DNA of 64,000 nt from Knoellia locipacati. Its GTDB lineage: Bacteria > Actinomycetota > Actinomycetes > Actinomycetales > Dermatophilaceae. Position numbers and translations under genes: made by a program. Shown here one piece after another: positions 12,117-40,100 of the stretch. The first letter of the stretch is position 1. The number at the start of each line of letters is the position of its first letter. The stretch spans positions 40,664 through 104,663 of the forward strand of contig NZ_BKBA01000006.1 in assembly GCF_007992835.1 (NCBI RefSeq), read 5' to 3'. The notes beneath the pieces were generated by a model. It saw only the letters and a program-made list of their open reading frames with translations. It searched no databases and was not told the DNA's origin.

Positions 12117-12135
12117 GAAGACGTTGAGCGTCTTC
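12117..12135 (+). ncRNA. Hairpin in the IS110 upstream region, possible bridge-RNA part
   Basis: The noncoding segment before the transposase contains a perfect 7-bp stem GAAGACG/CGTCTTC with a TTGAG loop. IS110-group elements express a structured bridge RNA from their noncoding end that pairs with donor and target DNA. The location is right for the IS110 subgroup, but only this one hairpin is evident by eye; the full RNA fold and its guide loops are not established. Confidence 0.35.
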
Positions 12136-12208
12136 GGTCTGGCGTGGCGAACGTCCTCCTGATGCGCTTGTCGGGCTTGGTGTCCCAAAGAGCAGAAGGA
12201 GGACGTTC

Positions 12209-23187: not shown

Positions 23188-23264
23188 AACGTGATGCTCA
23201 CCCGCATGTCGCTGCAGCTCACTCAAGGGTCGCCGTTTCACTCACATGCCGATGAGCGTGCGTT
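23188..23264 (+). repeat. Cassette-array site 1
   Basis: A 77-bp imperfect inverted repeat running from AACG to CGTT. Left arm parts GCTCA and GCATGT pair with ACATGC and TGAGC on the right, with three mismatched bases between. The right half TGCCGATGAGCGTGCG is repeated exactly in site 12. It opens the array 22 bp after the NlpC/P60 stop. Confidence 0.75.
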
Positions 23265-23461
23265 GCGGTCCTTGCTCCTCGGCCGTTCTGGACGCAAGGC
23301 GTGTAAGGCTGACAAGTCCGGACAAACGTGGCGGGCAATCGCCGCGCCTCCTCTAAACTGCCATCGCGCTTCAGCCTGGGGCTTGGGAGAGGTCGCAGGT
23401 GTGGCCGCGTACGGGACGTGACCATCCTTGAGTGCTCTTGACTGTTGGCGGATGGAGGAAC

Positions 23462-23959
23462 ATGGCGTTTTCGGCGCTCCCGACTCGGGGCATCAGGAAC
23501 CCCTTGGTGCGGAGTCTCAACCTCAATCGCACGCTGGCGCTTGCTGTCTTCCGGATTGCTGAGGGAGGCGCTGACCCTGAGGTGACCTGGCGTCAAGAAG
23601 CCGAGGACCCGAAAGGCGCCTTTCAAGCACTTGGGACATACATCGCCATCGGTGCGATGGTCGCTGCACCCCTCGTTCCATGGCCGTACTACTTGCTGAT
23701 TCGGGATCTCCTCCCACGCGGTCTCACGACGGATCTCCTTGATGTGATGTGCATAGTTCTCATTCCGTTGTCCGGTCTGATCGGCTACGTGGACTGCCGC
23801 TTAGCGGCGTCGCGGGAGGCGGAGAACCTCACCCTCTCGAAGACACCGCCCGCCCCACCAGCCCGCTTAGATCTCCTAGGGAACGGCCGGGTATTGGGGC
23901 GAAGCTCAACGCTAGGTTTCGTCGCAAGCCTGGTGGCTTCAGCACTCTTCGCCATCTAA
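23462..23959 (+). CDS. Cassette gene 1: three-helix membrane protein
   Basis: From ATG 23462 (GGAGGA at 7-11 nt), 165 residues with three hydrophobic helices: AIGAMVAAPLVPWPYYLLI, LLDVMCIVLIPLSGLIGYV and LGFVASLVASALFAI at the very end. The N-terminal 60 residues are soluble and basic. No known family. About 200 bp between site 1 and this gene have no obvious reading frame and may contain a promoter. The TAA stop overlaps the AAC that opens site 2. Confidence 0.6.
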   Translation: MAFSALPTRGIRNPLVRSLNLNRTLALAVFRIAEGGADPEVTWRQEAEDPKGAFQALGTYIAIGAMVAAPLVPWPYYLLIRDLLPRGLTTDLLDVMCIVLIPLSGLIGYVDCRLAASREAENLTLSKTPPAPPARLDLLGNGRVLGRSSTLGFVASLVASALFAI

Positions 23960-24060
23960 CGCTGGTAAGGCTGCGCGATCCGCGTGGGCCGGCTCACCCG
24001 CGTGGCGAATGCCCGCATCTGCCTCGATCGGCTCGCTGAATGTCGACGAGCGAGCAGCGT
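23958..24060 (+). repeat. Cassette-array site 2
   Basis: Opens with AACGCTG, which overlaps the stop of gene 1 and pairs with CAGCGT at 24055-24060. An inner perfect stem GCTCGCT/AGCGAGC lies in the right half, and GCATCTGCCTC replaces the usual core. One of the longer and more divergent sites. Confidence 0.55.
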
Positions 24061-24086
24061 GGTCTCGTATCGCTGATGATTGCGCC

Positions 24087-24419
24087 ATGAGCAATGACAG
24101 GCGCTGGTTTCCCGGCCGAGAGGCAAAACAAATGCTCGAGACCGGTTGGGCTCTGGCTGAAGGAGAGCGGTGGGACGCTGCGGCCGAGGGCGATTGCGAC
24201 TTGACGTCGCTTCGACTCCACGCCCCAAGAACGCTCGCCTTGGAGTTCCGTCTGGACGGCCCCGTCACACGACTCATCGAGTTCCCCGGACTGGCAGAAC
24301 TGCACATCGACGGCGACCTTCAGTGGGAGGGAGAAGCCGATCTTGGGTGGGAGGTTGGACACGTCGATGTCACTTGCGGGATCACCAAGACGGGACGGGC
24401 TGGTGGTTTACGTCCTTGA
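24087..24419 (+). CDS. Cassette gene 2: small soluble protein, unknown
   Basis: The ATG at 24087 is chosen because the frame upstream of it runs through site 2. The 110-residue product has an acidic, Trp-containing helical N terminus (MSNDRRWFPGREAKQMLETGW) and beta-type segments (TLALEFRLDGPVTRLIEFPGL, ELHIDGDLQWEG). There is no membrane helix and no recognised family. No strong ribosome binding site is visible. Confidence 0.5.
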   Translation: MSNDRRWFPGREAKQMLETGWALAEGERWDAAAEGDCDLTSLRLHAPRTLALEFRLDGPVTRLIEFPGLAELHIDGDLQWEGEADLGWEVGHVDVTCGITKTGRAGGLRP

Positions 24420-24478
24420 GCTGCCGCAGGCGATCCTGCGCTTTGCGAGCGCCCTGGGGCTGGCCGGGTCCTGATCTG

Positions 24479-24527
24479 AACGACTCGCGTCAGGTGCCCG
24501 CTCATTACGCAGTGTGCGCATTCGGCG
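24479..24527 (+). repeat. Cassette-array site 3
   Basis: Begins AACG (24479) and contains the stem CGCTCATTACGCA/TGCGCATTCGGCG around a 3-nt loop (9 of 13 positions complementary plus a wobble). The TGCCGC core is altered to TGCCCGC. It lies 60 bp after the stop of cassette gene 2. Confidence 0.55.
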
Positions 24528-24544
24528 CGCCGTATCCTCGTGAT

Positions 24545-24796
24545 GTGATCGAGGATGTCGGGTTTCAGGTCAACTGGATCAGCGTGCCGATCTTTTTCGC
24601 GCTTGCGGGCGGCCTAGCACTCCATGCCAAGCGCGTGTCTGGCGGCTGGACACGGCCATGGATCGGCATCAAACCACTGTGGTGGTTCGTCCTCATCTTC
24701 TTTGTGCCCTTTGTTGGGGTACCAGTTCTCGTCGTGCGCCTAATCGCGAATAGGGACACGCCGGGCGTGATCACTGGCCGCGGCGTCTCCCGCTGA
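24545..24796 (+). CDS. Cassette gene 3: small two-helix membrane protein
   Basis: The GTG at 24545, just after site 3, opens an 83-residue protein with two TM helices (WISVPIFFALAGGLALHA and PLWWFVLIFFVPFVGVPVLVVRL) and a short basic tail. The upstream extension of this frame crosses site 3 and gene 2, so it is not used. The TGA stop is inside the left edge of site 4. Function is unknown. Confidence 0.55.
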   Translation: MIEDVGFQVNWISVPIFFALAGGLALHAKRVSGGWTRPWIGIKPLWWFVLIFFVPFVGVPVLVVRLIANRDTPGVITGRGVSR

Positions 24797-24839
24797 GCTT
24801 CCGGATCTGCCGCCTTCCGCGCAAACGTTTCGATGAGCG
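24791..24839 (+). repeat. Cassette-array site 4
   Basis: Core GGATCTGCCGC on the left and CGATGAGCG on the right, closed by CGCT/AGCG, with AAACGTTT near the centre. The left edge overlaps the stop codon of gene 3. Confidence 0.6.
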
Positions 24840-24889
24840 ACGTCCTCAGGTATGGCGATTTGAATTCTCGGTAGAGCTACGTTGTGCTC

Positions 24890-25243
24890 ATGTCTCAGAC
24901 AACGGCGCCGAAGCGTCCAGCGACTCAGCGCCGGGGTGTGGGTGTGCTCCAACGTGCGGCCGGCGTCGCTGCGCTTGTTGCCGGAAGCTGCGTCTCGATC
25001 CTGCTGGCCCTCAGCGGATGGTTCCTCGGGGCAGCCCCACTGACTGCCGTCGAACCGAACGGCCTGTTCGTGGACTGCGGCCCCGCCCTCTTCGATCGCC
25101 CTAACCCGCTTCCCGATGCGGCCTGCGCGAGCGCCTACTTTCCCTTGCCAGTCGTTAGTGTCCTGTTCCTGGTTGTGGGCACCCTTGGCGCACTGTCGTG
25201 CCTCGGCCTTCTCGCGCGTCGGGACCTCTCGAACCTGCCTTGA
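24890..25243 (+). CDS. Cassette gene 4: two-helix membrane protein
   Basis: From ATG 24890, a 117-residue protein with a basic N terminus, TM helices AAGVAALVAGSCVSILLALSG and LPVVSVLFLVVGTLGALSCLG, and an external loop of about 45 residues holding two cysteines (FVDCGPALF and DAACASAYF) that may form a disulfide. GTG 24884 is an alternative start. No family recognised. Its stop is 3 bp before the AAC of site 5. Confidence 0.55.
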   Translation: MSQTTAPKRPATQRRGVGVLQRAAGVAALVAGSCVSILLALSGWFLGAAPLTAVEPNGLFVDCGPALFDRPNPLPDAACASAYFPLPVVSVLFLVVGTLGALSCLGLLARRDLSNLP

Positions 25244-25246
25244 CGT

Positions 25247-25299
25247 AACGCACTCACATGCCGCGGATCGGTACCCTCGCGGGTGTGAAGCGGATGGTT
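25247..25299 (+). repeat. Cassette-array site 5
   Basis: AACGCAC-TCACA-tg-CCGCG on the left pairs with CGCGG-g-TGTGA on the right: two perfect 5-bp stems separated by an unequal internal loop. This asymmetry is what is seen in attC hairpins. GTT follows at 25297-25299. Confidence 0.75.
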
Positions 25300-25500
25300 G
25301 TCGACGGCGAGCACTTCGACGTCATCGAGCGCGTCGGCGAGCCCGGGGTCCATGAGCTTCGTTGGACCTCCGGCCCCAACGCGGACTACGGCTTCGTGAC
25401 TTCGACCTACAGCGGTGAAGGTCAAACCGACGCGGAGCTCAAGGACGCTATTCGCAACTTCCTCGGTCTGGTGGATCCGATCACTGGCTACATCGATTAG
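25285..25500 (+). CDS. Cassette gene 5: small acidic protein
   Basis: A 71-residue acidic protein from GTG 25285; ATG 25294 is an equally possible start. The pattern VDGEHFDVIERVGEPGVHELRW, PNADYGFVTSTYSG, TDAELKDAIRNFLGLVDPITGYID reads as a compact beta-alpha domain of a kind seen in short actinobacterial hypotheticals. The start lies within the right half of site 5 and the stop is followed 3 bp later by site 6. No known function. Confidence 0.6.
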   Translation: MKRMVVDGEHFDVIERVGEPGVHELRWTSGPNADYGFVTSTYSGEGQTDAELKDAIRNFLGLVDPITGYID

Positions 25501-25503
25501 CTC

Positions 25504-25545
25504 AACCGGATCTGCCGCGGTCCGGTGACCTTTTCGGGGGTCGCC
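25504..25545 (+). repeat. Cassette-array site 6
   Basis: AACCGGATCTGCCGCGGTCCGG: stem CCGGA/TCCGG around the core, followed by a second stem GGTGACC/GGTCGCC. The CCGGA/TCCGG pair recurs in site 16. Confidence 0.6.
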
Positions 25546-25694
25546 GCCCATGGTGGACGGCGCCCCCTGGGGCCTGGCCCGACTCGAACGGTGCCGTCAT
25601 CCTTGAGTTCAGTGACGCCCAGTACCAGCGCTGGGCGTTGAGCAGGCTGTCCGCAGACAGTACGGGAGAGTCGCCCTAGAGAGCACTCAAGTTG
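25546..25694. other. Cassette F: segment without a clear gene
   Basis: These 150 bp between sites 6 and 7 have no complete gene. One frame ending at TAG 25679 reads GAVILEFSDAQYQRWALSRL and looks like the end of a once-longer coding region without a start. A gene-less or decayed cassette is the simplest reading. Confidence 0.45.
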
Positions 25695-25736
25695 AACGCA
25701 CGCATCTGCCGCGTTCCGCGCGGTCGTGCCGATGTC
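25695..25736 (+). repeat. Cassette-array site 7
   Basis: AACGCACG-CATC-tg-CCGCG-ttccg-CGCGG-tcgtgcc-GATG: outer 4-bp and inner 5-bp perfect stems with unequal loops of 2 and 7 bases. It is closely similar to site 13. Confidence 0.75.
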
Positions 25737-25782
25737 AGGGCACTCGACAGCGCGCAGACCCGAGTTCGGCGAAGATGCATGC

Positions 25783-26445
25783 ATGGAATGGTCGGAACGG
25801 AGCCGTGAGCGTCTCGAGGTTGCGCTCACGGAGGCGGACGTTGTCGGTGTTCGCCAAGTTGGCGACGACTCCCTCGAGTTCCTCATGCATGTGTCGGCCC
25901 TCCCAGAAGCCGGCCCCATCGATCCGGACGCGCGGCGCCTGCTGATGCTGCGGGGTGTTGCGGAGGCTCAGTTTCTGCTTCGTCGAGTTACGGTCGAGGG
26001 CAACGGCCCAGCGATCCCCATCGGGAGCCTCTCGGCCCTCGATGAGTTCTTCGAGACTCTGGCCTTCGGTGGCTCCTTATACGGGTGGCGATACTTTGAC
26101 GATCCAGAGTTGACGGCGGATTGGCCGGATGAGCCGAGCCTCATCGCCCGCTTCAGCGAGCACGACGCGCCCCACTCCTTCTACTGGTTCAACGAGTGCG
26201 CACGTCTCGAGGAAGGCGAGGTTCGCAGCTACTGCATCGAGGGAACCGCCACGTTTGAAGATCTGACCGTGCTTCGCGCCGACGGCTCCGAGCAATCTGC
26301 GGACGACTTCGCCGACGAGGGTGTGCGCTGGTGGCAGGCCTTCCAGGACTTCGAGAACCGAGTGAGCACTGAGTCCCAAAAGGCTTGGGGCGCCTCAAGG
26401 CTGACATGGCGTGAGTGGCCTGGGTCCCCAGCGCCATCGTCCTAA
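25783..26445 (+). CDS. Cassette gene 7: soluble acidic protein, unknown
   Basis: From ATG 25783, 220 residues, acidic throughout, rich in Trp and Phe (GWRYFDDPELTADWPDEPSL, HSFYWFNECARL) with no membrane helix. The longer frame to 25726 runs into site 7, so the internal ATG is preferred. The pattern does not match a family I can name. The TAA stop is the first base triplet of site 8. Confidence 0.6.
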   Translation: MEWSERSRERLEVALTEADVVGVRQVGDDSLEFLMHVSALPEAGPIDPDARRLLMLRGVAEAQFLLRRVTVEGNGPAIPIGSLSALDEFFETLAFGGSLYGWRYFDDPELTADWPDEPSLIARFSEHDAPHSFYWFNECARLEEGEVRSYCIEGTATFEDLTVLRADGSEQSADDFADEGVRWWQAFQDFENRVSTESQKAWGASRLTWREWPGSPAPSS

Positions 26446-26510
26446 GACGAACGCCCTCATCTGCCGCGGGTCGCTTGCCTTTGCTCCGTTGAAAGTGATG
26501 GGTGGTCTTA
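26443..26510 (+). repeat. Cassette-array site 8
   Basis: TAAGAC at the left edge (including the gene 7 stop) pairs perfectly with GTCTTA at the right edge; inside, CATC pairs with GATG. The left half AACGCCCTCATCTGCCGC is the best match to the array consensus. Confidence 0.75.
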
Positions 26511-26559
26511 CTCGGCGACACTGGTAGGTCGGTGCGGAGGCTCGTGGTGCTATGCACCG

Positions 26560-26952
26560 GTGCGAAGTGACGAGTTCTGGCGACGAAGTGTCGCCCTGGC
26601 CGTGCCAATCATTGTGTTGGCAGTCCTGACACGCCCGGGCGCGGAGCCCAGCGACCGGTCGGTCGCTCTAGGGCTTTTGGCCCTCGTAGTGCCGGCGTTG
26701 TGGGTGAGTTATCCGGTGTTCTCACGGTTCGCGCAGATCGAGCCGACTCGGATGACCACGACCGAGTTCGCAGTTGACGTGGCGGCATTTGGCGCGCTCG
26801 GCTTGGCTTCGGGACTGGAAGGCCCGAATCTGCCGCTACCAGTTCGTCTATTGCTGGGGCTACTCGGCGCCGCTGGCCTGGCATACATCTCGGCCACCAT
26901 TCGACAGCGAGAACGTGACGGGGATACGTCCACGAGCTTCTTCGCCGATTGA
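26560..26952 (+). CDS. Cassette gene 8: membrane protein of three to four helices
   Basis: From GTG 26560, 130 residues with hydrophobic segments SVALAVPIIVLAVLT, VALGLLALVVPALWVSYPVF, VAAFGALGLASGLEG and LLLGLLGAAGLAYISATI. Small integral membrane proteins like this recur in the array. Convergent with reversed gene 9; only 43 bp separate the two stops, and site 9 fills most of that space. Unknown function. Confidence 0.55.
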   Translation: MRSDEFWRRSVALAVPIIVLAVLTRPGAEPSDRSVALGLLALVVPALWVSYPVFSRFAQIEPTRMTTTEFAVDVAAFGALGLASGLEGPNLPLPVRLLLGLLGAAGLAYISATIRQRERDGDTSTSFFAD

Positions 26953-26978
26953 CGACCGATCTGGTGATGCCTCGAGAC

Positions 26979-27020
26979 GTCCTGTCATGCCGCGATCACG
27001 ACATCCGATACGTGGCGTGA
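26979..27020 (+). repeat. Cassette-array site 9
   Basis: TCATGCC pairs with GGCGTGA (7 bp with one G-T wobble). GTCCTGTCATGCCGC is shared with site 11. The core stays on the + strand although the next gene is on the minus strand. Confidence 0.65.
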
Positions 27021-27358
27021 GACTCCACCCAGGCACCAGCCTCGCGGCTAGACCAAGCGGCATTCACGGGCTCCGATTCACACAGCTCGATGTGCACCGT
27101 GGCCTCCTCCTCCCAGACTTGGCCGGCGTACCGAAGCGCGAGAACGATGTGGCTTCCAGTCCGCTCTTCTCGCCCGCCTCTCACGTCCCCTGTCGCGGTC
27201 AACGGTTCATCGAGTAAAACGACACACGCGCGCTCCTCGTTCCGCCCCGGAATCCACTTGAGCACGGCGCCAGCCACTCCTTCTCTTCCTGCCAGCCACG
27301 TAGGCTCGAAGTCGTAGCCACCGCTGACTGTCACGCGCGTCCCCTCCCGCATCTCCAT
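26996..27358 (-). CDS. Cassette gene 9 (reversed): beta-rich protein, unknown
   Basis: From ATG 27358 on the minus strand, 120 residues: GTRVTVSGGYDFEPTWL, AGAVLKWIPGRNEERACVVLLDE and HIVLALRYAGQVWEEEATVHIELCE suggest a small all-beta barrel like SH3-type or TTHA-type domains. It lies in the opposite direction to the cassette sites. The stop is inside site 9; the start is 15 bp from site 10. No family recognised. Confidence 0.55.
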   Translation of the reverse strand: MEMREGTRVTVSGGYDFEPTWLAGREGVAGAVLKWIPGRNEERACVVLLDEPLTATGDVRGGREERTGSHIVLALRYAGQVWEEEATVHIELCESEPVNAAWSSREAGAWVESHATYRMS

Positions 27359-27373
27359 GAGGCTGAGTCTTCC

Positions 27374-27449
27374 AACGCGACCCCGCAAGCGCACTCATTT
27401 GCAGCGGATCGTGCGCGCATCGGGATCGTGGATCACCGAGTGACGCGTT
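27374..27449 (+). repeat. Cassette-array site 10
   Basis: The clearest site: 76 bp from AACGCG (27374-27379) to CGCGTT (27444-27449), with inner stem CACTC/GAGTG separated from the outer one by 12 bases on the left and 1 on the right. The core is TTTGCAGCGG. AAC/GTT ends match those of site 1. Confidence 0.8.
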
Positions 27450-27471
27450 CTGGGCGATGTAGCGTCATGCC

Positions 27472-27921
27472 ATGACCGGGGCCGCCGAAGGACTGACCGT
27501 TGCCTATCGGGCGGAGGGCCTGGAAGGGCTTGGTGAACTGCACGTCTCGGCCCGTGCTACTCCATTTGCAGGAGCGTCGGTCGGATACGTCAACGACGCC
27601 GACCTCTTGGATTGGACTCGTTCGCTCCTGGTCTACCCATGGTCAACAACAGCGAGGCCGCAAATCTCGTCGGCACTTGGAGACCAGAAAACGCTCAATC
27701 TGACCGCCTTCACCGTGACAGGGCGCGGACAACTGGCAGTGTCGGTGCACCTGGCCACGGTCGACACGGACGCTCACTCACCCACGACTGGGACGGTGTC
27801 CGAGGCCCGACTGCTCGTCCTGACTACGTACGAGGCAGTGCACCGATTCGCGAATGACCTTGCAGCCGCCATATCCAATGCCGGCGGTAGCGCCCATCTC
27901 GACCTCGAAGAGCTCGCCTAG
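27472..27921 (+). CDS. Cassette gene 10: soluble protein, unknown
   Basis: From ATG 27472, 149 residues with alternating strands and a C-terminal helix: GLGELHVSARATPFAGASVGYV, KTLNLTAFTVTGRGQLAVSVHLA, EARLLVLTTYEAVHRFANDLAAAI. The pattern LAVSVHLAT followed by TYEAVHRFANDL resembles small immunity-like domains, but I cannot name a family. Convergent with reversed gene 11, with site 11 between the stops. Confidence 0.55.
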   Translation: MTGAAEGLTVAYRAEGLEGLGELHVSARATPFAGASVGYVNDADLLDWTRSLLVYPWSTTARPQISSALGDQKTLNLTAFTVTGRGQLAVSVHLATVDTDAHSPTTGTVSEARLLVLTTYEAVHRFANDLAAAISNAGGSAHLDLEELA

Positions 27922-27928
27922 CCACAAT

Positions 27929-27952
27929 GTCCTGTCATGCCGCTGATAGGAC
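27929..27952 (+). repeat. Cassette-array site 11
   Basis: Compact hairpin GTCCT-g-TCA-tgccgc-TGA-t-AGGAC: two perfect stems (5 and 3 bp) with single opposed unpaired bases and the core TGCCGC as the loop. Confidence 0.7.
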
Positions 27953-27963
27953 CCAAAGGAGAC

Positions 27964-28770
27964 CTAGGTTCTGCTTCGAGCCTTCCAGCGAGACCGCAAT
28001 CTCACGCCGGGCGTTCTCACCGGTTCCGGGTAGTACTCGACATGCCAATCAGCGCCCAGAACGCCTTGTAGCTCGTCGGCAAGTGCCTCGCCCGCCGTCA
28101 CGAACTCCTCCGCCGCGGGGATCGCGACGAACCCACCCTTGCCTACCGACTCCGTCCACTCCCGCTGCCAATCGAGGAGGCGCGTTGCCAGGCTGGCGGG
28201 AACCGGGAGCTGGTCAGGGCCCCGGTGGGACTGGCCGGACGTAGTCGCGAAGGACAAGGCGCCATCGTGGCCCGCTTGGAGACGCAGCCAACGTCGTGGC
28301 CGCTGCCGTGTCAACAGCCGACGGCACTCGGTGACGACTGCGTCCGCGATGTCTTGCAGTTGCTCTGGGTGATCCTCCGCTTCGGAGGCCAACCCGATGA
28401 AGATCCGCAGGTCACCTTCTGGTTCCATCCGGTGGCTCGCTGACCGCCACAGCCAGTTCGCGGCGACGATGGGAGCGACAGTGCCATCGACAACACCATT
28501 GGCTGTGTGACGAACCAACTGCCACAGGGCATTCTGCTCGTCGGCACGCTCAATGCCCTGTTCGACGACTACAGCCTGCCAAAGGTCTCGTAGGTCGCGA
28601 GGGTCTGATGAGTCTGCCCCAGCGAGCTCAATGAGTCGTGGCCCGTCCATTCCGGCGACGACGGCGTCAAGGGCGAGTCCCACGAGGACCTCGGAGGGCA
28701 TCTCACCGATCGTGTCTCGCCATGCGGCCACCTGCAACGCTGCTCGAGCTTGGTCAACAGTCAGGGGCAT
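27964..28770 (-). CDS. Cassette gene 11 (reversed): helical protein, unknown
   Basis: Start ATG 28770 is chosen because GGAGG sits 8 nt upstream of it; the ATG at 28788 is in frame but unsupported. The 268-residue product is mostly helical (QARAALQVAAWRDTIGEMPSE, LWQAVVVEQGIERADEQNALW, RLLTRQRPRRWLRLQAGHDG) and ends in a basic tail. It is the largest cassette product. The sites on both sides keep + orientation. No family recognised. Confidence 0.6.
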   Translation of the reverse strand: MPLTVDQARAALQVAAWRDTIGEMPSEVLVGLALDAVVAGMDGPRLIELAGADSSDPRDLRDLWQAVVVEQGIERADEQNALWQLVRHTANGVVDGTVAPIVAANWLWRSASHRMEPEGDLRIFIGLASEAEDHPEQLQDIADAVVTECRRLLTRQRPRRWLRLQAGHDGALSFATTSGQSHRGPDQLPVPASLATRLLDWQREWTESVGKGGFVAIPAAEEFVTAGEALADELQGVLGADWHVEYYPEPVRTPGVRLRSRWKARSRT

Positions 28771-28812
28771 GAAGGCATCCTCCGCCACAAGAGCGCCTTC
28801 TCGGGCGTTTCC

Positions 28813-28846
28813 CGCTCATGCCGCAGATCGGTCGTGCCGATGAGCG
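28813..28846 (+). repeat. Cassette-array site 12
   Basis: Perfect 7-bp stem CGCTCAT/ATGAGCG enclosing GCCGCAGATCGGTCGTGCCG. The right part is identical over 16 bp to that of site 1. It lies between two reversed genes. Confidence 0.75.
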
Positions 28847-28851
28847 TGCGG

Positions 28852-29157
28852 TCAGCCACTCTGTCGTCGGGCCCACTCGTGCCACCTGACCCGCAGGTCA
28901 GGGAGTAGCGCGGAAAGATAGGCAGCCGCTTCATCGTTGCTCGTCAGGGGTAGTGGAAGTTGCACGGCGTAGGTGCCCCATCGCGCCTCGTCAGGCGCGA
29001 TGGAGGCCCTGAAATAGGCGGGTTCTCCTGTCTCCCAGATGAGCCCTGCGAGAGACCCGTCGGGCGCCTTCACCCAAGCGTCACCGCAGTCGTCGTAGGA
29101 CACGAACATGCCCATCTCGAACTCATCGACCCGCGCAGAGGGGTATTCCGCTTCCAC
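28852..29157 (-). CDS. Cassette gene 12 (reversed): small acidic protein
   Basis: From GTG 29157, about 101 residues: MFVSYDDCGDAWVKAPDGSL, AYFRASIAPDEARWGTYAVQ, ending DLRVRWHEWARRQSG. Acidic, Trp-rich and without membrane segments; size and composition resemble immunity proteins, but no named family is evident. The frame is open far upstream but crosses site 13, so the start just inside it is used; ATG 29109 is another option. Confidence 0.5.
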   Translation of the reverse strand: MEAEYPSARVDEFEMGMFVSYDDCGDAWVKAPDGSLAGLIWETGEPAYFRASIAPDEARWGTYAVQLPLPLTSNDEAAAYLSALLPDLRVRWHEWARRQSG

Positions 29158-29182
29158 AATCGGAGCGTAATGCCGATCTACC

Positions 29183-29218
29183 GCTACTGCCGCGTTTCGC
29201 GAGGTCGTGCCGAGGAGC
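29183..29218 (+). repeat. Cassette-array site 13
   Basis: CTGCCGCG-tttcg-CGAGG-tcgtgcc, almost the same as site 7 with one mismatch in the stem, closed by GCT/AGC. Core on the + strand between two reversed genes. Confidence 0.65.
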
Positions 29219-29219
29219 A

Positions 29220-29522
29220 CTATTCCGTGAGGCTTATGTGCAGACCGGCTTCGTCGGTCCCGAACCAGCCTGACTCGGGCTCCCAGTACAGGTTGTAGCC
29301 GGGCCGAGCATCTGGCTGAGTCAGCGTGAGGAGGTGACGTGCCAACGAGTTGAGCGCGGCACGGTTGCCCGCGATTCCGATGGTCTTCTCCCGCTCGTCG
29401 AATGAGAGCCACAACTTCGTTGTGTCGTCCCAATTGGAGATCAGGCCATGCTCGTCCACCTTCCGGATGTCGACAGTGATCGGCAGCGTGGTCGCGTCGT
29501 CGGATGTCACGCGAGCAGTCAA
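29220..29522 (-). CDS. Cassette gene 13 (reversed): Imm32-like immunity protein
   Basis: From TTG 29522, 100 residues. The C-terminal half, TIGIAGNRAALNSLARHLLTL followed by GYNLYWEPESGWFGTDEAGLHISL, resembles the Imm32 family of polymorphic-toxin immunity proteins. In-frame coding-like sequence (FPGFHLDIRW) continues upstream of the TTG to a stop near 29590, so the gene may be 5'-truncated or use a non-standard start. Family assignment is by pattern only. Confidence 0.5.
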   Translation of the reverse strand: MTARVTSDDATTLPITVDIRKVDEHGLISNWDDTTKLWLSFDEREKTIGIAGNRAALNSLARHLLTLTQPDARPGYNLYWEPESGWFGTDEAGLHISLTE

Positions 29523-29693
29523 CCAGCGGATGTCGAGGTGGAAACCGGGAAAAGCACGGACAGGCCGCGTTTGGTGCGCGGTCGAGTCTGAGCGCAGCTA
29601 CCGTGACGTCGTCACGGGGCGGTCCTCGACGAGCCTGACCCGGCGATACCACGCCAACGCGCGAGGCCACCCGAGCCTGAATCCCCTCGCCTG

Positions 29694-29747
29694 AATCGTC
29701 CTCATCTGCCGCGAAGGGGAACTCGATACTGCCGATGAGCGGTCGTT
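29694..29747 (+). repeat. Cassette-array site 14
   Basis: Perfect 6-bp stem CTCATC/GATGAG with AATCG on the left and GGTCGTT on the right as partial outer arms. The left half CTCATCTGCCGCG is a full consensus match. The 170 bp between gene 13 and this site hold nothing further. Confidence 0.75.
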
Positions 29748-29821
29748 GGCCCGGACATGTAGCGACTGCAAAGACGGGCCAAGAGAAACAACTGGTGGGC
29801 CTGGGATCCATCCCCCAGAAT

Positions 29822-30166
29822 GTGGCGGTGAACAAGGGATCTGGACCTCCGCCGACCGAGTGTGCCTACTGCCACGGCAGTGTCGATGAACCCCTTTGGC
29901 ACCACATGGAGTTGGGACGCGAGGACCCAACCTCGCCGGACCCTTGGCCAGCGGATTTCCTGAGCCTGTCGTTCTGTTGTGAGCAACACCTGTCCGACTA
30001 CTTCCGTCAGGGGTTGTCACCTCCGCCTGACTTCCGTCCAGATGAGCCACTGCCGGCACATACGGTTCGCGACCGCCTTCAAGAAGCTGCCGTTTTCGGT
30101 GGGCTTGGGCTGGCGGTCGCGCTGGCCGTGGTCGGACTCGCCACGGTGATTCGCTGGCTGACGTGA
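29822..30166 (+). CDS. Cassette gene 14: zinc-ribbon protein with C-terminal TM
   Basis: From GTG 29822 (GTG 29828 is equally possible), 114 residues. An N-terminal CAYCHGSV and a later FCCEQHLSDYF form a likely four-cysteine/histidine zinc ribbon; a C-terminal helix (VFGGLGLAVALAVVGLATVI) anchors it to the membrane. Zinc-ribbon plus TM is a common layout for small actinobacterial proteins of unknown role. The start is chosen after site 14. Confidence 0.55.
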   Translation: MAVNKGSGPPPTECAYCHGSVDEPLWHHMELGREDPTSPDPWPADFLSLSFCCEQHLSDYFRQGLSPPPDFRPDEPLPAHTVRDRLQEAAVFGGLGLAVALAVVGLATVIRWLT

Positions 30167-30180
30167 TTACGTGCCCGTCG

Positions 30181-30204
30181 CGCGCTCATGCCGCCGTGAG
30201 AGCG
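30181..30204 (+). repeat. Cassette-array site 15
   Basis: CGCTCA pairs with TGAG-a-GCG, leaving one unpaired base on the right; loop TGCCGCCG. A second CCGATGAGGG segment follows near 30250. Confidence 0.65.
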
Positions 30205-30313
30205 TCCGAACACGCTTCGCTAGGGATGGCCAATCTGCCGTTCACTGACGGCCGATGAGGGATGATCGGTTCGTGATCACGCCTGTTCCCCACGGAAGCG
30301 CGTAGGTGTTCAG

Positions 30314-30652
30314 GTGAGAAAGAAGTCATCGGAGTGGATGTCACGCCCTCGTAAGCCGCTACTGGACGCCGTACCGCGCTCGAGGACACTGCAAGCGCTC
30401 GTGATTTTCCCGTACGTCTGCACGGCGTTCCTCGTGGCGTACCTGTTCGGCGGTGACGAAACGTCGAGCAGCGATACACCCCTGTTAGTCGTGTTCGCCA
30501 TCGTGGCTGTCATGGAGACGGCCTTCCTCGCGGCTTGGCTCCGAAGACCAGTCACGACAGGCCAGCGCGAGCGGTATGTCTGGTTGTTGGGAGGCGGAGC
30601 TTTGGCCCTCGGAATCTTCTTGATGATCAGTGCCGCCTGGGTGGCTCAATGA
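30314..30652 (+). CDS. Cassette gene 15: three-helix membrane protein
   Basis: From GTG 30314, 112 residues: basic N terminus (RKKSSEWMSRPRK), then TM helices LVIFPYVCTAFLVAYLFGG, LLVVFAIVAVMETAFLAAWL and LLGGGALALGIFLMISAAWV. No family recognised. About 110 bp lie between site 15 and the start, with no gene. Confidence 0.55.
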   Translation: MRKKSSEWMSRPRKPLLDAVPRSRTLQALVIFPYVCTAFLVAYLFGGDETSSSDTPLLVVFAIVAVMETAFLAAWLRRPVTTGQRERYVWLLGGGALALGIFLMISAAWVAQ

Positions 30653-30721
30653 CAGCAAAGCCGTAGATCTCTGTCACTCTCACTCACTGGGTGCGATGAG
30701 TTCCTCGTCTCGTGGACTACA

Positions 30722-30748
30722 CCGGAATCTGCGTCCGGACATGCCGCA
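30722..30748 (+). repeat. Cassette-array site 16
   Basis: CCGGA-atctgcg-TCCGG followed by ACATGCCGC. The stem is the same as in site 6, but the core is displaced to its right; a degenerate site. Confidence 0.5.
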
Positions 30749-30813
30749 TTTCGCTCGGCTGATGGGGGCGCGAACGTGAAGCTGAGATAAGGGTCGCGAC
30801 ATACGCTTACAAA

Positions 30814-31437
30814 GTGAGTGACGAGCAGCCTTGGCGCCCTGCGACGCTTCCGAGCCCTCTCGAAGCGGGCATCGCCGCTCGCACCGACGCCTCCGGTCGC
30901 CTGACGCTGCGCAGCGACTCCAACATGTTTTGGGGACACGTGGTGGCATGGCTGCTCTTGGCCGTGGCCGTTGGGGCCAACAACAGAAGCGGGCTGAGTG
31001 GCCCGGACGCTCTCACCGTTGGCCAGGCCGTACTCGTGGCGGCGTGTTTGTTCGTCACCTCCCTAGCTGCGCTCATGGTGTTCGGAAGGCCTCACGTCAC
31101 TGTGGCCGATCGGTGGGTGACCGTCAGAAACCCTTTGCGCACATACCGCATGGACATATCGACCCTGGAGTCTTTGGACGAAGGGTTCTGGGGCTTCCCA
31201 CTTCTTCGGCTGCGCGGAGGACGATCGCTGCGGGTCTTCGGGTTAGGCGAAAGCAGTAACGAGAGCATGCAGGGCGGGGGCGACGGAGCCGTCATTCTTC
31301 GATCCCTCATATCCCAGGAAGAGGCTGGAACGCCGGCTGTTCAACAGGAGTCCGGGCACTGGTCCCTGATGAGCGGTTCGCTCATCCTTCTCCTACTTGG
31401 GTGGCTCGCCTACGTCCTCGCCGTCACTCTGCTGTAG
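30814..31437 (+). CDS. Cassette gene 16: membrane protein with PH-like central domain
   Basis: From GTG 30814, 207 residues. Two TM helices near the N terminus (FWGHVVAWLLLAVAVGA, AVLVAACLFVTSLAALMVFG), a beta-rich central region (HVTVADRWVTVRNPLRTYRMDISTLESLD, LLRLRGGRSLRVFGL) resembling bacterial PH domains, and a final TM helix (GSLILLLLGWLAYVLAVTLL). PH-like membrane proteins are frequent in actinobacteria with no fixed role. Start and context fit one cassette. Confidence 0.55.
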   Translation: MSDEQPWRPATLPSPLEAGIAARTDASGRLTLRSDSNMFWGHVVAWLLLAVAVGANNRSGLSGPDALTVGQAVLVAACLFVTSLAALMVFGRPHVTVADRWVTVRNPLRTYRMDISTLESLDEGFWGFPLLRLRGGRSLRVFGLGESSNESMQGGGDGAVILRSLISQEEAGTPAVQQESGHWSLMSGSLILLLLGWLAYVLAVTLL

Positions 31438-31459
31438 CAGCTGAGGCTTGCACCGCGAT

Positions 31460-31486
31460 CTTCCTCATCTGCCGCGGTGAGGGAAG
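31460..31486 (+). repeat. Cassette-array site 17
   Basis: CTTCCTCA pairs with TGAG-g-GGAAG, an 8-bp stem with a single unpaired G on the right and the loop TCTGCCGCGG. A full left consensus (CTCATCTGCCGC). Confidence 0.75.
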
Positions 31487-31516
31487 CTTTCAGGGGTTCT
31501 CGGTAGCCTTCCTGGC

Positions 31517-31882
31517 GTGAGTACCGATGGGGTCCAGAAACGATGGGCGGACGAGGTCGCGACTTACTTGTCGACTCGTCGATGGCTTGACGGTGCTCTT
31601 CATGAGCTGCCTGCGGGAGTCCTTTGGGGAGCCGATGGGGCCGACGCGGATCAGTGTCAGGAGATGCTCGAGGGTTTGGAGGACTTCGCACTTCATTGCG
31701 CCCGGCTCGGCCTAACTGACCATGAGGAGTTCGTGGCTCAGTGCCGATGGCACTTCGAGCACTACCCGCATTACCTGGGTCGGCGGCGGCACTTCGTCGA
31801 CTACGCGACCTACATCCGAGACCGGCATGGCCCTCTTCGCGTCAGCCCTCCACCAGTCCCGCCGCAGATGGTCGGTCCATAG
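31517..31882 (+). CDS. Cassette gene 17: soluble helical protein, unknown
   Basis: From GTG 31517, 121 residues: QKRWADEVATYLSTRRWLD, QEMLEGLEDFALHCARLGL, EEFVAQCRWHFEHYPHYLG and a basic C-terminal region. It is rich in Trp, His and Tyr, with no membrane helix and no recognised family. The start is 31 bp after site 17 and the stop 19 bp before site 18. Confidence 0.55.
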   Translation: MSTDGVQKRWADEVATYLSTRRWLDGALHELPAGVLWGADGADADQCQEMLEGLEDFALHCARLGLTDHEEFVAQCRWHFEHYPHYLGRRRHFVDYATYIRDRHGPLRVSPPPVPPQMVGP

Positions 31883-31900
31883 GCTTCTCAACTAGTCGCA

Positions 31901-31928
31901 GACGCCCGCCCCTGCCGCTGATCGGGTC
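31901..31928 (+). repeat. Cassette-array site 18
   Basis: GAC-gc-CCG on the left pairs with CGG-GTC on the right, with two unpaired bases on one side; loop contains CCTGCCGC. Confidence 0.55.
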
Positions 31929-31950
31929 ACTCCCAGGAATGATGGTTCGC

Positions 31951-32297
31951 ATGACGCTTGCACTACCTGACGACATCGACCCGGAGCTGTGGTTTCCAAG
32001 CGGCGATGTAGCGGGTTCACGCGACTACCTGTATCCCTCTGTCTGGCATACCTCCCTAGGTCGAATGGGCGGGTATTGCGACGCTAAGGACGTCTACTTT
32101 CGAATTTCCGCTGCGGAGATCTCTGCCGATGCGCCGATCGCTTCGAGGTACTGGGTCCGTGGCCACTTGGCGGGGAGCCTGCCTAGCCCTCCTACGAGGA
32201 CCCCAATGAGGAAGAGCTGGCCGGATGGAGTGCCCGCGCCCACGCGTACTTCGCCTCAGGATCAGGGTCGTCAGCGCCTGAGGAGAGGTCCGACTGA
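31951..32297 (+). pseudogene. Cassette gene 18: frameshifted small protein
   Basis: Reading from ATG 31951 gives a normal protein (LALPDDIDPELWFPSGDVAG, GGYCDAKDVYFRISAAEISA, RYWVRGHLAG) that becomes Pro/Arg-rich after about 32185. In a different frame from about 32190 a natural-looking continuation, YEDPNEEELAGWSARAHAYF, runs to TGA 32297 at the left edge of site 19. So the original gene spans 31951-32297 and has one frameshift near 32185-32192. It may be a pseudogene or a sequencing error. Confidence 0.65.
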
Positions 32298-32322
32298 AGC
32301 ATCCGCAAATGCCGCAGTCTGG
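32290..32322 (+). repeat. Cassette-array site 19 (last)
   Basis: CCGACT pairs with AGTC-t-GG (one unpaired T) and inside it GCAT with ATGC; the core AATGCCGC lies between. It overlaps the stop of frameshifted gene 18 and closes the array. Confidence 0.6.
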
Positions 32323-32445
32323 TCTCCCGTCGAGCGGGTAGGAAGCCAATCGCGCTGAGCCGACTCAGTTACCGAGGGCTGAAACTGCGCCCGGCCTTCT
32401 CACTTGAGCGTCGATCGGGATGCCTGCCGGTGTGAGGATGTGCGC

Positions 32446-36704: not shown

Positions 36705-37093
36705 GCCGGCGACGGAAGGTGGGAGAAGCATCGCAGAGGATCTACGGCGACTTCGCGGACGGCATACGGTTCCGGAACGCAGAGATGCGGCGTCAGCTCC
36801 TCGGCATCCGATGGCGCTTGGACGGTTCATGCGTCAAGCACGACGTCGCCCTGTGGTTCACGGAGCGCACCAAGCCAAACGGACGGGTCCTCGCGATGTG
36901 CCGAGAGTGTCCGGTTCGGCGGTTGTGTCTTGCCTCGTCCATCGCCTACGCCGAGGAGTTTGGTGTCTGGGGCGGCTACACGCCACCCAAGCGCGAAGGC
37001 ATGATCCATACGGCTCGGCAGGGCATCCCTGTCGACCTCATCGTCGAGAGCGTGCTGGACGTGGAGGCGGAACGTCGTGCCACAGCCAGCTGA
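36701..37093 (+). CDS. WhiB-like iron-sulfur protein
   Basis: This 130-residue protein has the WhiB cysteines: one in LDGSCVKHD and three in MCRECPVRRLCLA (C-x2-C-x5-C), then the GVWGGYTPPKR turn motif and a basic region. WhiB proteins carry a 4Fe-4S cluster and modulate sigma-factor-dependent transcription. A WhiB-like gene between the translocase and rep is common in AICEs. The first 45 residues precede the usual domain. It overlaps the rep gene by 17 bp. Confidence 0.82.
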   Translation: MSRRRKVGEASQRIYGDFADGIRFRNAEMRRQLLGIRWRLDGSCVKHDVALWFTERTKPNGRVLAMCRECPVRRLCLASSIAYAEEFGVWGGYTPPKREGMIHTARQGIPVDLIVESVLDVEAERRATAS

Positions 37094-38597
37094 GGCGCCG
37101 CTGGAGGCTGTACGCGAGCTCGCGGCAAAAGAACGCGTGTGCACGCGCCCCCTGTTCCGCCGGGTGGTGGACACCACGACCGGAGAGGTTGCCGTCGTCT
37201 CCCTGCCCTGCCAGTCAACCCGCGCCAGCCAGTGCCCCTCATGCGCAGAACGAGCACGCGCACTGAGGGTCCAGCAGTGCTTGGAGGGGTGGCACCTGGA
37301 AATCGAACCAGTGGACAAGGACGATGACCGGTCGCAATGCGACGACGAGGACGACGAAGGCGACGACTCGGACGACGAAGAGCGTGTTGTTCGTTCGACG
37401 CGCCGTCGCGATGACGTCCCCGATTTGCCGCGCCTCCCGCAGGACGCCGGGACCCTGGGACGCGTCTTCGAGGGGAATGACGGAAGGCTCTATCGACCGT
37501 CCATGTTCATCACTCTGACCCTGCCCGGCTACGGCCGGATCCGCCCTGGAACAGGCGTGCCGGTTGACCCGGAGCGCTACGACTACCGAAGGGCGGCCAT
37601 GGATGCGCTCCACTTCTCGAAGCTGCTCGACCGGTGGTTCCAGAACCTCCGCCGGTGCGCCGGCTTCAAGGTGCAGTACTTCGGCGCCATCGAAGCTCAA
37701 CGCCGGCTCGCTCCACACTTCCACGTCGCAACGCGCGGTGCGATCCCGCGGCAAGTCATCAAGGCCGTGACGAAGGCGACGTACGTCAGCATCTGGTGGC
37801 CTTCTTTGGACCGGCCCAAGTACGTACAGGACACGCCGGCGTGGGATGGCATGGACTACGTGGACCCGCAGACGGGCATCCCGTTGCAGACGTGGGACGA
37901 CGCACTCACTGAGCTGGACAAGAACGCGGATGCCAAACCCGCCCACGTCGTGCGCTTTGGCAGCCAGACCGACGCCAAGGGCTTGATCGCAGGAGTTCCC
38001 GAGACGGATCGGGCCGTTCGCTACCTCACGAAGTACCTCACCAAAGCGTTAGCGGAGACCTTCGCGACCGACGGCCGCGTCGAGCTCGCGTACGACATGC
38101 ACATTGACCGCCTCTACGCCGAGGTGCGCTTCCTTCCGTGTTCTCCCGACTGTCCGAACTGGCTCCGCATCGGCATCCAGCCTCGAACTGTCGGGCCCGG
38201 GATGGAGCCGGGGTGGTGCCGCTCGAAAGCCCACTCACGAGAACACCTCGGGCTCGGTGGACGTCGCGTCCTGGTCTCGCGTGGATGGTCGGGCAAGACG
38301 CTGGCGGGGCACCGAGCGGACCGGTCCGAGGTCGTTCGGCAGGCGCTCACATCGGCCGGGATCGAGGTGGCTGCTGTGGACCGAATGGCTGCGCAGGTCG
38401 TGGACGAGGACGGGAACGCACGGTTCGAGTGGGCGGCCGTGATCCCGGGTGCCGGCACGAAGGCGGCGATGCTCGTGGCGACCATTCTTGAGCGCCGGCG
38501 CTGGCGTGCGCAGTACGAATTGGCCAAGGCGATGGCCAACGCTCACGACCCACCTGTGGACAAACAATTCGGCAGTCTGCAGCGAGCCGGTAGGTGA
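37077..38597 (+). CDS. repSA: RepSA-like rolling-circle replication initiator
   Basis: This 506-residue protein has the AICE initiator layout: cysteine pairs LPCQS and CPSCAERAR near the N terminus, an acidic stretch around residue 90, SMFITLTLPGYGRI, the HUH-type LAPHFHVATRG with H-x-H, and RYLTKYLTKALAETF, whose Tyr-x-x-Lys is the probable nicking residue. It then has a C-terminal domain with three conserved Cys (FLPCSPDCPNW). It should nick the double-strand origin and start rolling-circle replication of the excised circle. GTG 37077 is used; it overlaps the whiB-like stop. Confidence 0.85.
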   Translation: MPQPAEAPLEAVRELAAKERVCTRPLFRRVVDTTTGEVAVVSLPCQSTRASQCPSCAERARALRVQQCLEGWHLEIEPVDKDDDRSQCDDEDDEGDDSDDEERVVRSTRRRDDVPDLPRLPQDAGTLGRVFEGNDGRLYRPSMFITLTLPGYGRIRPGTGVPVDPERYDYRRAAMDALHFSKLLDRWFQNLRRCAGFKVQYFGAIEAQRRLAPHFHVATRGAIPRQVIKAVTKATYVSIWWPSLDRPKYVQDTPAWDGMDYVDPQTGIPLQTWDDALTELDKNADAKPAHVVRFGSQTDAKGLIAGVPETDRAVRYLTKYLTKALAETFATDGRVELAYDMHIDRLYAEVRFLPCSPDCPNWLRIGIQPRTVGPGMEPGWCRSKAHSREHLGLGGRRVLVSRGWSGKTLAGHRADRSEVVRQALTSAGIEVAAVDRMAAQVVDEDGNARFEWAAVIPGAGTKAAMLVATILERRRWRAQYELAKAMANAHDPPVDKQFGSLQRAGR

Positions 38598-38603
38598 GCG
38601 GGG

Positions 38604-38807
38604 ATGGAGAAGCTGTACACGCTGGAGGAGGCAGCCGCGGTGATGGGAACGACGGGCCGCTTTCCTCGCCGGCTGGTCGCGCAGCGCAGGATCCGGTTCG
38701 TGAAGCTCGGTCGCTTCGTGCGAATTCCCGAGTCAGCCATCGACGAGTTCCTCGACGAGGGGACCGTGGAAGTCGTGCACCGAGCCAACCGGGGTTGCGC
38801 GTCATGA
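38604..38807 (+). CDS. xis: Excisionase (Xis, MerR-like helix-turn-helix)
   Basis: This 67-residue basic protein has the pattern of AICE excisionases: MEKLYTLEEAAAVMGTTGRFPRR, RRIRFVKLGRFVRIPESAIDEFL, a winged HTH of the MerR/HTH_17 type. Xis directs the integrase toward excision. It begins 6 bp after rep and its stop overlaps the integrase start (ATGA), so the two are co-translated. Confidence 0.82.
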   Translation: MEKLYTLEEAAAVMGTTGRFPRRLVAQRRIRFVKLGRFVRIPESAIDEFLDEGTVEVVHRANRGCAS

Positions 38808-39916
38808 GTCCGGCACGACGACCCTTCGGCGCGGTCCGCAAGCGGCCGTCCGGGCGTTACTCGGCCAGCTACCTCGCCCCAGACGGCCTGCGCCGGTTTG
38901 CGGGACGCAGCTTCGTGAGCAAGGCGGATGCCCACGCCTGGTTGGCTGCCCAACAGACGAGCTTGATGCAGGGTTCTTGGACCGATCCTGAGCTCGCACG
39001 GGTCACGCTCTCGGACTACGGCGGTCGCTGGGTCAAGGAACATCGAGTGAGCAGTCGGACGCGAGACCTGTACGAAGGACTCTTCCGGCTGCACATCGAG
39101 CCCTATTTGGGGCGGATGCAGCTCGACCAGATCAGACCAGACTCCGTACGAGGGTGGCGTGCACACCTCCGAGATGATGGGCGCTCCGAGTCGACGACGG
39201 CCAAGAGCTACCGGCTTCTTCGAGCCATCCTCAACACCGCCGTGGACGACGGCCGAATCCCGAGGAATCCCTGTCGGATCCGGGGTGCTGATCGTGAGAG
39301 GCCGGCCGAGAGGCCCATCGCCACCGTGGACGAGGTCTTCACTCTTGCCGACCATGTCGCGCCGAACTACCGCGTCTTCGTGCTCACGGCAGCCCTGGCC
39401 AGCCTGCGCTGGGGGGAGCTGGTGGGCCTTCATCGGCGCGACCTCGACCTTGACGCGGGCCTGATTCATGTCCGGCGAGCGGTGAGCGAGCGTGGTGGCC
39501 GACTCGAAACCACCCTCCCCAAGAACGACCGCACCCGGACGGTGGCCATCCCGGGTGTGCTGGTTGAGGAGTTGCGGAGCCACCTGCACGTGCAGGTCGC
39601 GTACTCACTGGAGTCCGCGGTCTTCACCGGCGAGAAGGGCGGCACGCCGAGGCGAGGGAACTGGCGCTCGGTGGCGCGTTGGGCCCAAGCCTTGGACCGT
39701 GCCGGGCTACCCGCGCATTTCCACTTCCACGACCTGCGCCACACCGGCAACCATCTCGCCGCCCAAACCGGAGCCTCGACGCGTGAGCTGATGCAACGGA
39801 TGGGGCACTCAACGGTGCGGGCGGCGTTGATTTATCAACACGCGACGGATGCCCGATCGCGACACCTTGCCGACCGTCTGGACACGCTCATCCGTGGCCA
39901 GCGGAGCGAGACGTGA
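38804..39916 (+). CDS. int: Tyrosine site-specific integrase of the AICE
   Basis: From ATG 38804, 370 residues. A short arm-binding N terminus (AVRKRPSGRYSASYLAPDG), a SAM-like core-binding domain, and a catalytic domain with Arg in ASLRWGELVGLHRRDL, HFHDLRHTGNHLA and GHSTVRAALIYQHATD (R, H-x-x-R, H and Y). It lies 110 bp from the tRNA-Gly attachment site, as usual for AICEs. It shows no sign by eye of the extra helix that marks integron integrases, so it is not a good candidate for the cassette array. Confidence 0.92.
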   Translation: MSPARRPFGAVRKRPSGRYSASYLAPDGLRRFAGRSFVSKADAHAWLAAQQTSLMQGSWTDPELARVTLSDYGGRWVKEHRVSSRTRDLYEGLFRLHIEPYLGRMQLDQIRPDSVRGWRAHLRDDGRSESTTAKSYRLLRAILNTAVDDGRIPRNPCRIRGADRERPAERPIATVDEVFTLADHVAPNYRVFVLTAALASLRWGELVGLHRRDLDLDAGLIHVRRAVSERGGRLETTLPKNDRTRTVAIPGVLVEELRSHLHVQVAYSLESAVFTGEKGGTPRRGNWRSVARWAQALDRAGLPAHFHFHDLRHTGNHLAAQTGASTRELMQRMGHSTVRAALIYQHATDARSRHLADRLDTLIRGQRSET

Positions 39917-40027: not shown

Positions 40028-40070
40028 GGAGCCGGTGACGGGAATCGAACCCGCGTGTCCAGCTTGGGAA
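40028..40070. repeat. Right attachment site, in tRNA-Gly
   Basis: A 43-bp perfect copy of 7145-7187 covering the anticodon arm to the 3' end of the tRNA-Gly gene. The intact tRNA here means the element supplied a replacement 3' end on integration. Confidence 0.93.
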
Positions 40071-40100
40071 GCTGGCGCTCTACCATTGAGCTACACCGGC
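40030..40100 (-). tRNA. tRNA-Gly (anticodon CCC)
   Basis: Read on the minus strand: acceptor GCCGGTG/CACCGGC, D arm GCTC/GAGC, anticodon stem CCAGC/GCTGG around TTCCCAA (anticodon CCC), T arm CGGGTTCGATTCCCG. About 71 nt, no encoded CCA. It is the integration target of the element. Confidence 0.95.

Follow-up and report, generated by a model that had tools for sequence, protein, structure and literature searches.

What separates the small genes of an unusual gene array in Knoellia locipacati, and what moves them, was studied in a 64,000-nucleotide stretch of contig NZ_BKBA01000006.1 (assembly GCF_007992835.1, positions 40,664 to 104,663 of the forward strand), referred to in full as the window. 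The original prediction, made from the letters of the window, had described the region 23188..32322 as a divergent integron-like array of 17 small genes and one gene-less segment, separated by 19 hairpin-forming repeats and carried by a conjugative element. Comparison with other actinobacterial genomes (G) and loci (L) indicates that this is very likely a cassette array with directly repeated 28-bp sites, which would be recombined as double-stranded DNA by a tyrosine recombinase here named IntA, and that it belongs to an integron-like actinobacterial system.

The predicted composition of the array was borne out. Array 1 includes 19 copies of the motif, all on the + strand, with core starts from 23241 to 32304, and between them lie 17 small open reading frames (ORFs) and the gene-less segment (25507-25701). 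A weight matrix built from 117 sites of other genomes, with the window and L039 excluded from training, recovered 15 of the 19 sites at a score of at least 12, all on the + strand, and no - strand place inside the array. At the same score, the rest of the window gave three - strand places (9.2-11.5 kb) and one place elsewhere (34764), 19 in total, whereas 20 shuffles of the 64 kb averaged 1.35 places and never exceeded 4. At a score of at least 10, an extra place outside the 19 was found at 29557. The sites with core starts 24014, 24802, 25507, and 27394 scored below 10 and are too divergent for this test; those at 25507 and 27394 remained below 12 even with a matrix that included the window, and their positions were set by eye.

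Each site is a dyad of 28 bp, approximately ACGTCCGCTCA-TGCCGC-GGTGCGCGCGG, in which inverted arms flank a strongly conserved asymmetric hexamer. For 386 unique sites from 89 arrays (defined per strand, by matrix score), the consensus is ACGTCCGCTCA-TGCCGC-GNNSCGNGCG, and the T, G, C, C, G, and C of the hexamer are conserved in 99, 99, 98, 99, 100, and 88%, respectively. Conservation at positions 0-11 is partly due to selection because the first sites were picked on these positions. The outer arms were not used in picking, and mirrored CG pairs were already visible in the first 121 sites. In the 386-site profile, the CG pairs at -4/-3 and 0/1 have their mirror images at 16/17 and 20/21 around the middle of TGCCGC, and the same point was the best centre when the left profile was compared with the reverse complement of the right (r=0.78; runner-up of 32 centres, 0.51). 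Mutual information at 11 of the 12 mirrored pairs was within 2 standard deviations of shuffles, and at the exception, -5/22, Watson-Crick pairs were just as frequent as expected (0.26 in both cases). The lack of covariation between the arms thus indicates that the symmetry reflects two bound protein subunits and not a base-paired stem. A dyad with a short centre is characteristic of the core sites of Xer/dif, Cre or Flp type, and the layout of the site is that of a double-stranded tyrosine-recombinase core site. The left half of the site core, CCGCTCATGC, is similar to CCGATAATGC in the dif proposed for Frankia alni (accessible part of PMC3025954).

Cassette exchange at the sites is well supported. 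Among 521 sites, 23 junction pairs keep one cassette while the neighbour differs and switch at TGCCGC; the upstream cassette only is common in 7 pairs, the downstream one only in 16, and both in none. In the upstream-sharing pairs, mean identity was 0.57-1.0 through position 5, 1.0 at positions 6-11, and about background from position 12, and in the downstream-sharing pairs it was at background through position 5, 0.56-0.88 at positions 12-21, and 0.81-1.0 at positions 22-29. Taken together, the two sets indicate the hexamer at positions 6-11 as the likely exchange point. The window cassette 26974-27406 has a homologue in the sister species (G121; L093, 7455-7887) that is 82% identical over 436 columns and has other neighbours; the homology begins and ends at the two bounding sites, and in L093 the homologue comes after an IntA-bearing segment. 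The same sites occur with different genes in relatives, which the original prediction had named as support for mobility, and single cassettes recur between different neighbours.

IntA was recognised from PF00589 matches in 11 genomes, which included 305-residue recombinases encoded among the sites in G121 and G111. This is the length of a simple recombinase and leaves no room for an arm-binding domain. In the family (149 genomes), a site was found within 1.5 kb in 13 of 13 IntA loci, these being the places with examined loci among 16 of IntA type and including two with weak sites only (L160, 14.7; L164, 12.7), as compared with 2 of 17 loci of the next clade, the 17 (42-48% identity) being those with loci among 46 listed matches of 36-50% identity. 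A second IntA copy in G094 (L197) is accompanied by 8 same-strand sites. A scan of species genomes, in which the best 80 of 134 relatives were kept (one record is a metagenome-assembled genome named Acidobacteria), gave 79 IntA loci that range from Micrococcales to Actinoplanes, Micromonospora, Nocardioides, Kribbella, Lentzea, and others. A same-strand site with a score of at least 15 is present at 70 of the 79, and the sites near IntA number 284 on the same strand and 14 on the opposite one, versus 2.8 per strand in shuffles. Family loci had contributed to the matrix, so that an independent count comes from beyond the family; there, 58 of 67 loci have a site, with 239 sites on the same strand versus 14. 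A site lies 57-149 bp 5' of the match start in 29 of the 74 IntA loci with more than 200 bp upstream. Furthermore, L196 and L260 have an IntA cassette in common at both ends and neither neighbour in common, and the 5' end of the IntA cassette is common to L198 and L267, which differ in neighbours; hence, the IntA gene can itself be carried as a cassette.

In the tree, the IntA proteins group as one clade (99/91) that is separate from Xer and lies close to short integrases, including one of an Arthrobacter phage. Of 24 aligned rows, 20 have all of the catalytic columns R, K, HxxR, H, and Y intact; L206 has no tyrosine, L238 no second arginine, and L261 and L269 are in part too short to tell. 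Two IntA proteins scored 48 and 51 bits with the integron integrase model TIGR02249 (cut-off 265) and fell below every cut-off in NCBIfam. Among solved structures, IntA matched XerD (1a0p) at 3.9e-23 and IntI4 (2a3v) at 5.7e-6. These values place IntA closer to XerD and outside the integron integrases. Its relatives at E of at most 1e-60 number 5733 among the 7999 candidates scored, the next clade included. No IntA match was found in plasmids at 1e-60, and 25 Arthrobacter phage records contain integrases of 44-46% identity, which are among the nearest relatives found. A half-length IntA relative (69%) is present at 6081-6551 of MT837522.1, a 6.7-kb contig named 'Bacteriophage sp.'. The predicted structure of IntA was of middling quality (mean predicted local distance difference test score 69.4, predicted template modelling score 0.55) and was not used.

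Arrays of the same kind are widespread. Allowing at most 2 mismatches, 216 occurrences of the string AACGTCCGCTCATGCCGC were counted, spread over 83 of the 149 family genomes, versus 91 in 63 genomes for the reversed control, and at least 4 matches were found in 21 genomes versus 0 for the control. Contig 13 of G106 has 25 sites (score at least 14) in 14.3 kb on a single strand and 0 on the other, the single-contig genome G083 has three arrays, and same-strand arrays were found in many genera. The suggestion that the repeats are a new site family holds as far as the searches reached. In L087, the left arm is CGCACA in three of four sites, whose upstream ends are nearly identical too, as though a cassette had been copied in tandem.

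In the proposed mechanism, two neighbouring sites would recombine within TGCCGC to give a circle with one site, which is cut out, and the circle would be inserted by recombination with any other site. The asymmetric hexamer would set the orientation, which may explain why the sites of one array point one way. Among 268 segments, the longest ORF has one direction in 146 and the other in 122, and the cassette genes thus likely have their own promoters. As no IntA gene was found in the window genome, the recombinase would act in trans, or the arrays may have been built in a previous host and now travel with the conjugative element. Both the double-stranded mode of recombination and the role of IntA are strongly suggested by the sequence comparisons. 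The arrays are a cassette system with integron-like working that tested negative for integron membership. It is probable that they represent an actinobacterial integron with an origin separate from IntI/attC, which employs a short phage-type recombinase, itself a cassette, on double-stranded 28-bp sites and has its own site-targeting IS110-type parasite. If so, IntA travelling as a cassette could seed and feed arrays anywhere.

Several observations weigh against recombination of double-stranded sites by IntA. Its basis is wholly comparative, and the reaction (circle, excision, binding) is deduced from it. The switch point rests on few pairs, since the left arm of the site has diverged in 3 of the 7 that share the upstream cassette, and some of the 23 junction pairs are not independent, one being the end of an insertion sequence (IS). 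Among the 13 IntA loci of the family, six are incomplete or disrupted (G078, G139, G122, G119, G087, and G001), and no site was found at 9 of the 79 IntA loci at a score of 15 or at 7 at a score of 13. The window genome, G083, G106, and G143 have arrays and gave no match to the IntA clade; thus, IntA may not be the enzyme everywhere. Finally, 22 of the 386 sites are followed by an exact copy of a distal inverted arm, TGCCGATGAGCG (controls 0-2), or 60 when at most 2 mismatches are allowed (controls 3-10), and a subset of 53 sites with the distal arm folds better than its own shuffles (-1.06). This arm recalls the two half-sites of attC and is left unexplained by the simple model.

A rival reading is a divergent integron, in which attC-like sites would be recombined as folded single strands by an IntI-type integrase, and arrays that lack the enzyme would be clusters of attC sites lacking integron integrases (CALINs). 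Cassettes, arrays, and shuffling are as in integrons, and a minority of sites consist of four boxes, in the order left arm, TGCCGC, inner arm, TGCCGA, and inverted left arm. Over 389 sites, a second TGCCG was counted 121 times between +18 and +80 (52 and 55 times in the controls), with a peak at +26 (21 places). In Pimelobacter simplex (L242), 8 matrix hits each have another exactly 20 bp further. The hairpins by which the original prediction defined the sites found no such support. The fold energy was -10.1 kcal/mol for the 386 sites versus -9.0 kcal/mol for 774 control windows, and that of the shuffles was -9.9 and -8.9 kcal/mol, respectively; the excess over shuffles was -0.20 for sites and -0.17 for controls (p=0.87), i.e. 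none over the 386 sites. The hairpin model was rejected as the basis of the site, the 22 candidate places showing no folding excess either. Arm pairing inside a site (7.09 of 12) was as with the arms of other sites (7.07), and so was that between the two ends of a cassette (7.08 versus 7.11). When anchored on the distal TGCCG, pairing was 4.74 of 12 with the own junction, 5.09 with the own cassette, and 4.85 with others, the difference between the last two being at most a weak hint. Two stretches, 23188-23264 and 27374-27449, can be read from AACG to CGTT over 77 and 76 bp, respectively, as the original prediction stated. The attC boxes are RYYYAAC and GTTRRRY; neither was found in the 386-site profile, in agreement with that prediction. 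Given also the missing covariation and the integrase scores of IntA, a divergent integron is unlikely. Of the divergent cassette system originally proposed, the array in an actinobacterial conjugative element with no IntA-type gene beside it stands, and the attC-like folded hairpins are not supported.

In another rival reading, the host XerC/XerD would recombine the sites, as with pdif modules, and IntA would be a passenger cassette. The 28-bp length and 6-bp centre are like those of dif, the left half of the site shares CCGnTnATGC with the suggested dif of F. alni (PMC3025954, as far as accessible), and arrays are found in genomes without IntA. However, a single dif-like match, which differs from the site in the hexamer and right arm, was found in each of 4 genomes; in G000, G111, and G121 it reads CCGATAATCAACATTATGTCAA and is presumably the working dif. 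Sites of pdif type alternate in orientation, whereas the array sites nearly always point one way. The linkage of IntA to the sites is phylum-wide, and sites are absent from 15 of 17 loci of the next clade. Hence, action of XerC/XerD is improbable. A role of the motif as a signal for regulation or transcription in a static gene set would agree with its intergenic position, but the sites share the strand of IntA (284 versus 14), yet segment ORFs point either way, gene content switches at the motif, and the gene-less segment is bounded by the motif too; this explanation is scarcely credible. Recombination of double-stranded sites by IntA thus remains the preferred reading.

A second array of four sites on the - strand (9.2-13.8 kb), missed in the original prediction, was found in the window (Table), and one of its sites is split by an IS110-type element. 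The G078 array that contains a homologue of the array 2 cassette also holds an IntA gene interrupted by an internal stop. Full-length copies of the IS110-type element are present in the window, L093, L106, L110, L113, and L198, and split a site in 6 of 6 cases; the count refers to full copies, and a 59-bp fragment in L267 lies outside it. The left flanks end in the left arm (CGCTCAT in four, CGCACAT, and CGACCAT), and all six right flanks start with GCCGC. The attC sites of integrons are also targeted, by IS1111-type elements, according to the accessible part of PMC11187229.

The host of array 1 is an actinobacterial integrative conjugative element with a RepSA-type initiator, an FtsK-type translocase, and an integrase adjoining a tRNA gene. 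A sister element in G135 has four sites and, by blastn, one cassette in common with array 1 (window 24550-24780, 69%). In Pfam, one of the 17 array ORFs was above the cut-off (Imm32), two of the 17 being tested in over-long or broken frames; PADLOC matched 0 of 10 window proteins, and Rfam gave nothing at gathering scores within 7000-34000. The Imm32 gene and an Imm8 cassette gene in L242 (8572-8913) suggest that some cassettes encode immunity proteins. At 31741-32358, the last cassette gene is apparently frame-broken, and the listed ORF reads through site 19. The TGCCGA border element of site 1 has similar elements at or near the starts of L106, L107, and L108, the three G083 arrays, where a perfect dyad, CGCTCATGCCGATGAGCG, is located at 7441, 8044, and 8347 (reverse), respectively, and is followed by a palindromic repeat that is dispersed across that genus. 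The leader common to these arrays was dropped as a candidate attI as it contains this dispersed repeat.

Table. Positions of the sites, cassettes, and conjugative element genes in the 64-kb window. Scores of both arrays are from the matrix trained without the window.
Feature	Coordinates	Strand	Core start	Score	Remarks
Array 2 site	9216..9243	-		21.5	
Array 2 site	10834..10861	-		17.3	
Array 2 cassette	10845..11407	.			common to G078 (75%)
Array 2 site	11424..11451	-		12.6	TGCCGG
Array 2 site split by IS110-type insertion sequence	12108..13805	-			transposase ORF 12209-13558 on +
AAA_10 ATPase, VirB4-like	16983-19604				
NlpC/P60	22107-23165				
Site 1	23236..23263	+	23241	13.4	5' border of array 1; hexamer TGCCGA, then inverted left-type arm tgagcgtgcg
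Site 2	24009..24036	+	24014	<10	CGCATC-TGCCTC
Site 3	24494..24521	+	24499	12.8	degenerate hexamer TTACGC
Site 4	24797..24824	+	24802	<10	
Site 5	25248..25275	+	25253	19.5	
Site 6	25502..25529	+	25507	<10	placed by eye
Gene-less cassette	25519..25712	.			between sites 6 and 7
Site 7	25696..25723	+	25701	14.8	
Site 8	26451..26478	+	26456	12.5	
Shared cassette	26974..27406	.			ORF 26996-27394 on -; common to G121
Site 9	26977..27004	+	26982	20.8	
Site 10	27389..27416	+	27394	<10	hexamer TGCAGC; placed by eye
Site 11	27927..27954	+	27932	21.1	
Site 12	28808..28835	+	28813	24.3	with distal TGCCGATGAGCG
Site 13	29177..29204	+	29182	17.6	
Cassette gene, Imm32 (immunity protein) domain	29220..29522	-			29.6 bits, cut-off 27
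Site 14	29696..29723	+	29701	12.9	with distal TGCCGATGAGCG
Site 15	30178..30205	+	30183	22.2	
Site 16	30731..30758	+	30736	19.0	
Site 17	31459..31486	+	31464	13.8	
Site 18	31902..31929	+	31907	13.5	
Site 19	32299..32326	+	32304	18.3	last of array 1
FtsK	35274-36704				
RepSA replication initiator	37077..38597	+			
Integrase of host element	38594..39916	+			not IntA (23% identity in local alignment)
tRNA-Gly	40028..40100	-			adjoins integrase; likely attachment gene

No such system was found in the open literature; preprints and most subscription journals lie outside this scope, and an earlier description is possible. Actinobacteria are reported to be without complete integrons in the accessible part of PMC9024848. 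A separate cassette system would explain the gain and reshuffling of small accessory genes, some of immunity type, in this phylum. It would also offer a second cassette system, of independent construction, in which to study what such systems need in order to work, with a simple double-stranded recombination site and an enzyme of about 300 residues, and a testable prediction for many proteins now named just XerD or tyrosine-type recombinase.

Among known systems, the short phage integrases of Brujita type are similar to IntA in length, and integrases of Arthrobacter phages, whether or not they belong to that subgroup, are near to it; the Brujita enzyme inserts a phage genome (PMC8138268, in the part accessible), whereas IntA is linked to arrays of repeated sites. 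XerCD/dif and pdif have in common with the present system the 28-bp site, 6-bp centre, and inverted arms, but the centre and right arm are different here, the tandem arrays have one orientation, and the enzyme is of a separate clade. Integrons and CALINs are alike in having small cassettes in arrays, sites on one strand, a tyrosine recombinase, arrays with or without the enzyme, and IS110/IS1111-type elements that target the site. No attI was identified among the arrays looked at. Unlike in integrons, the site is a conserved double-strand dyad and not a folded attC, the enzyme is not IntI, the IntA gene lies within the array, on the same strand as the sites and sometimes in a cassette, and the cassette genes are directed both ways.

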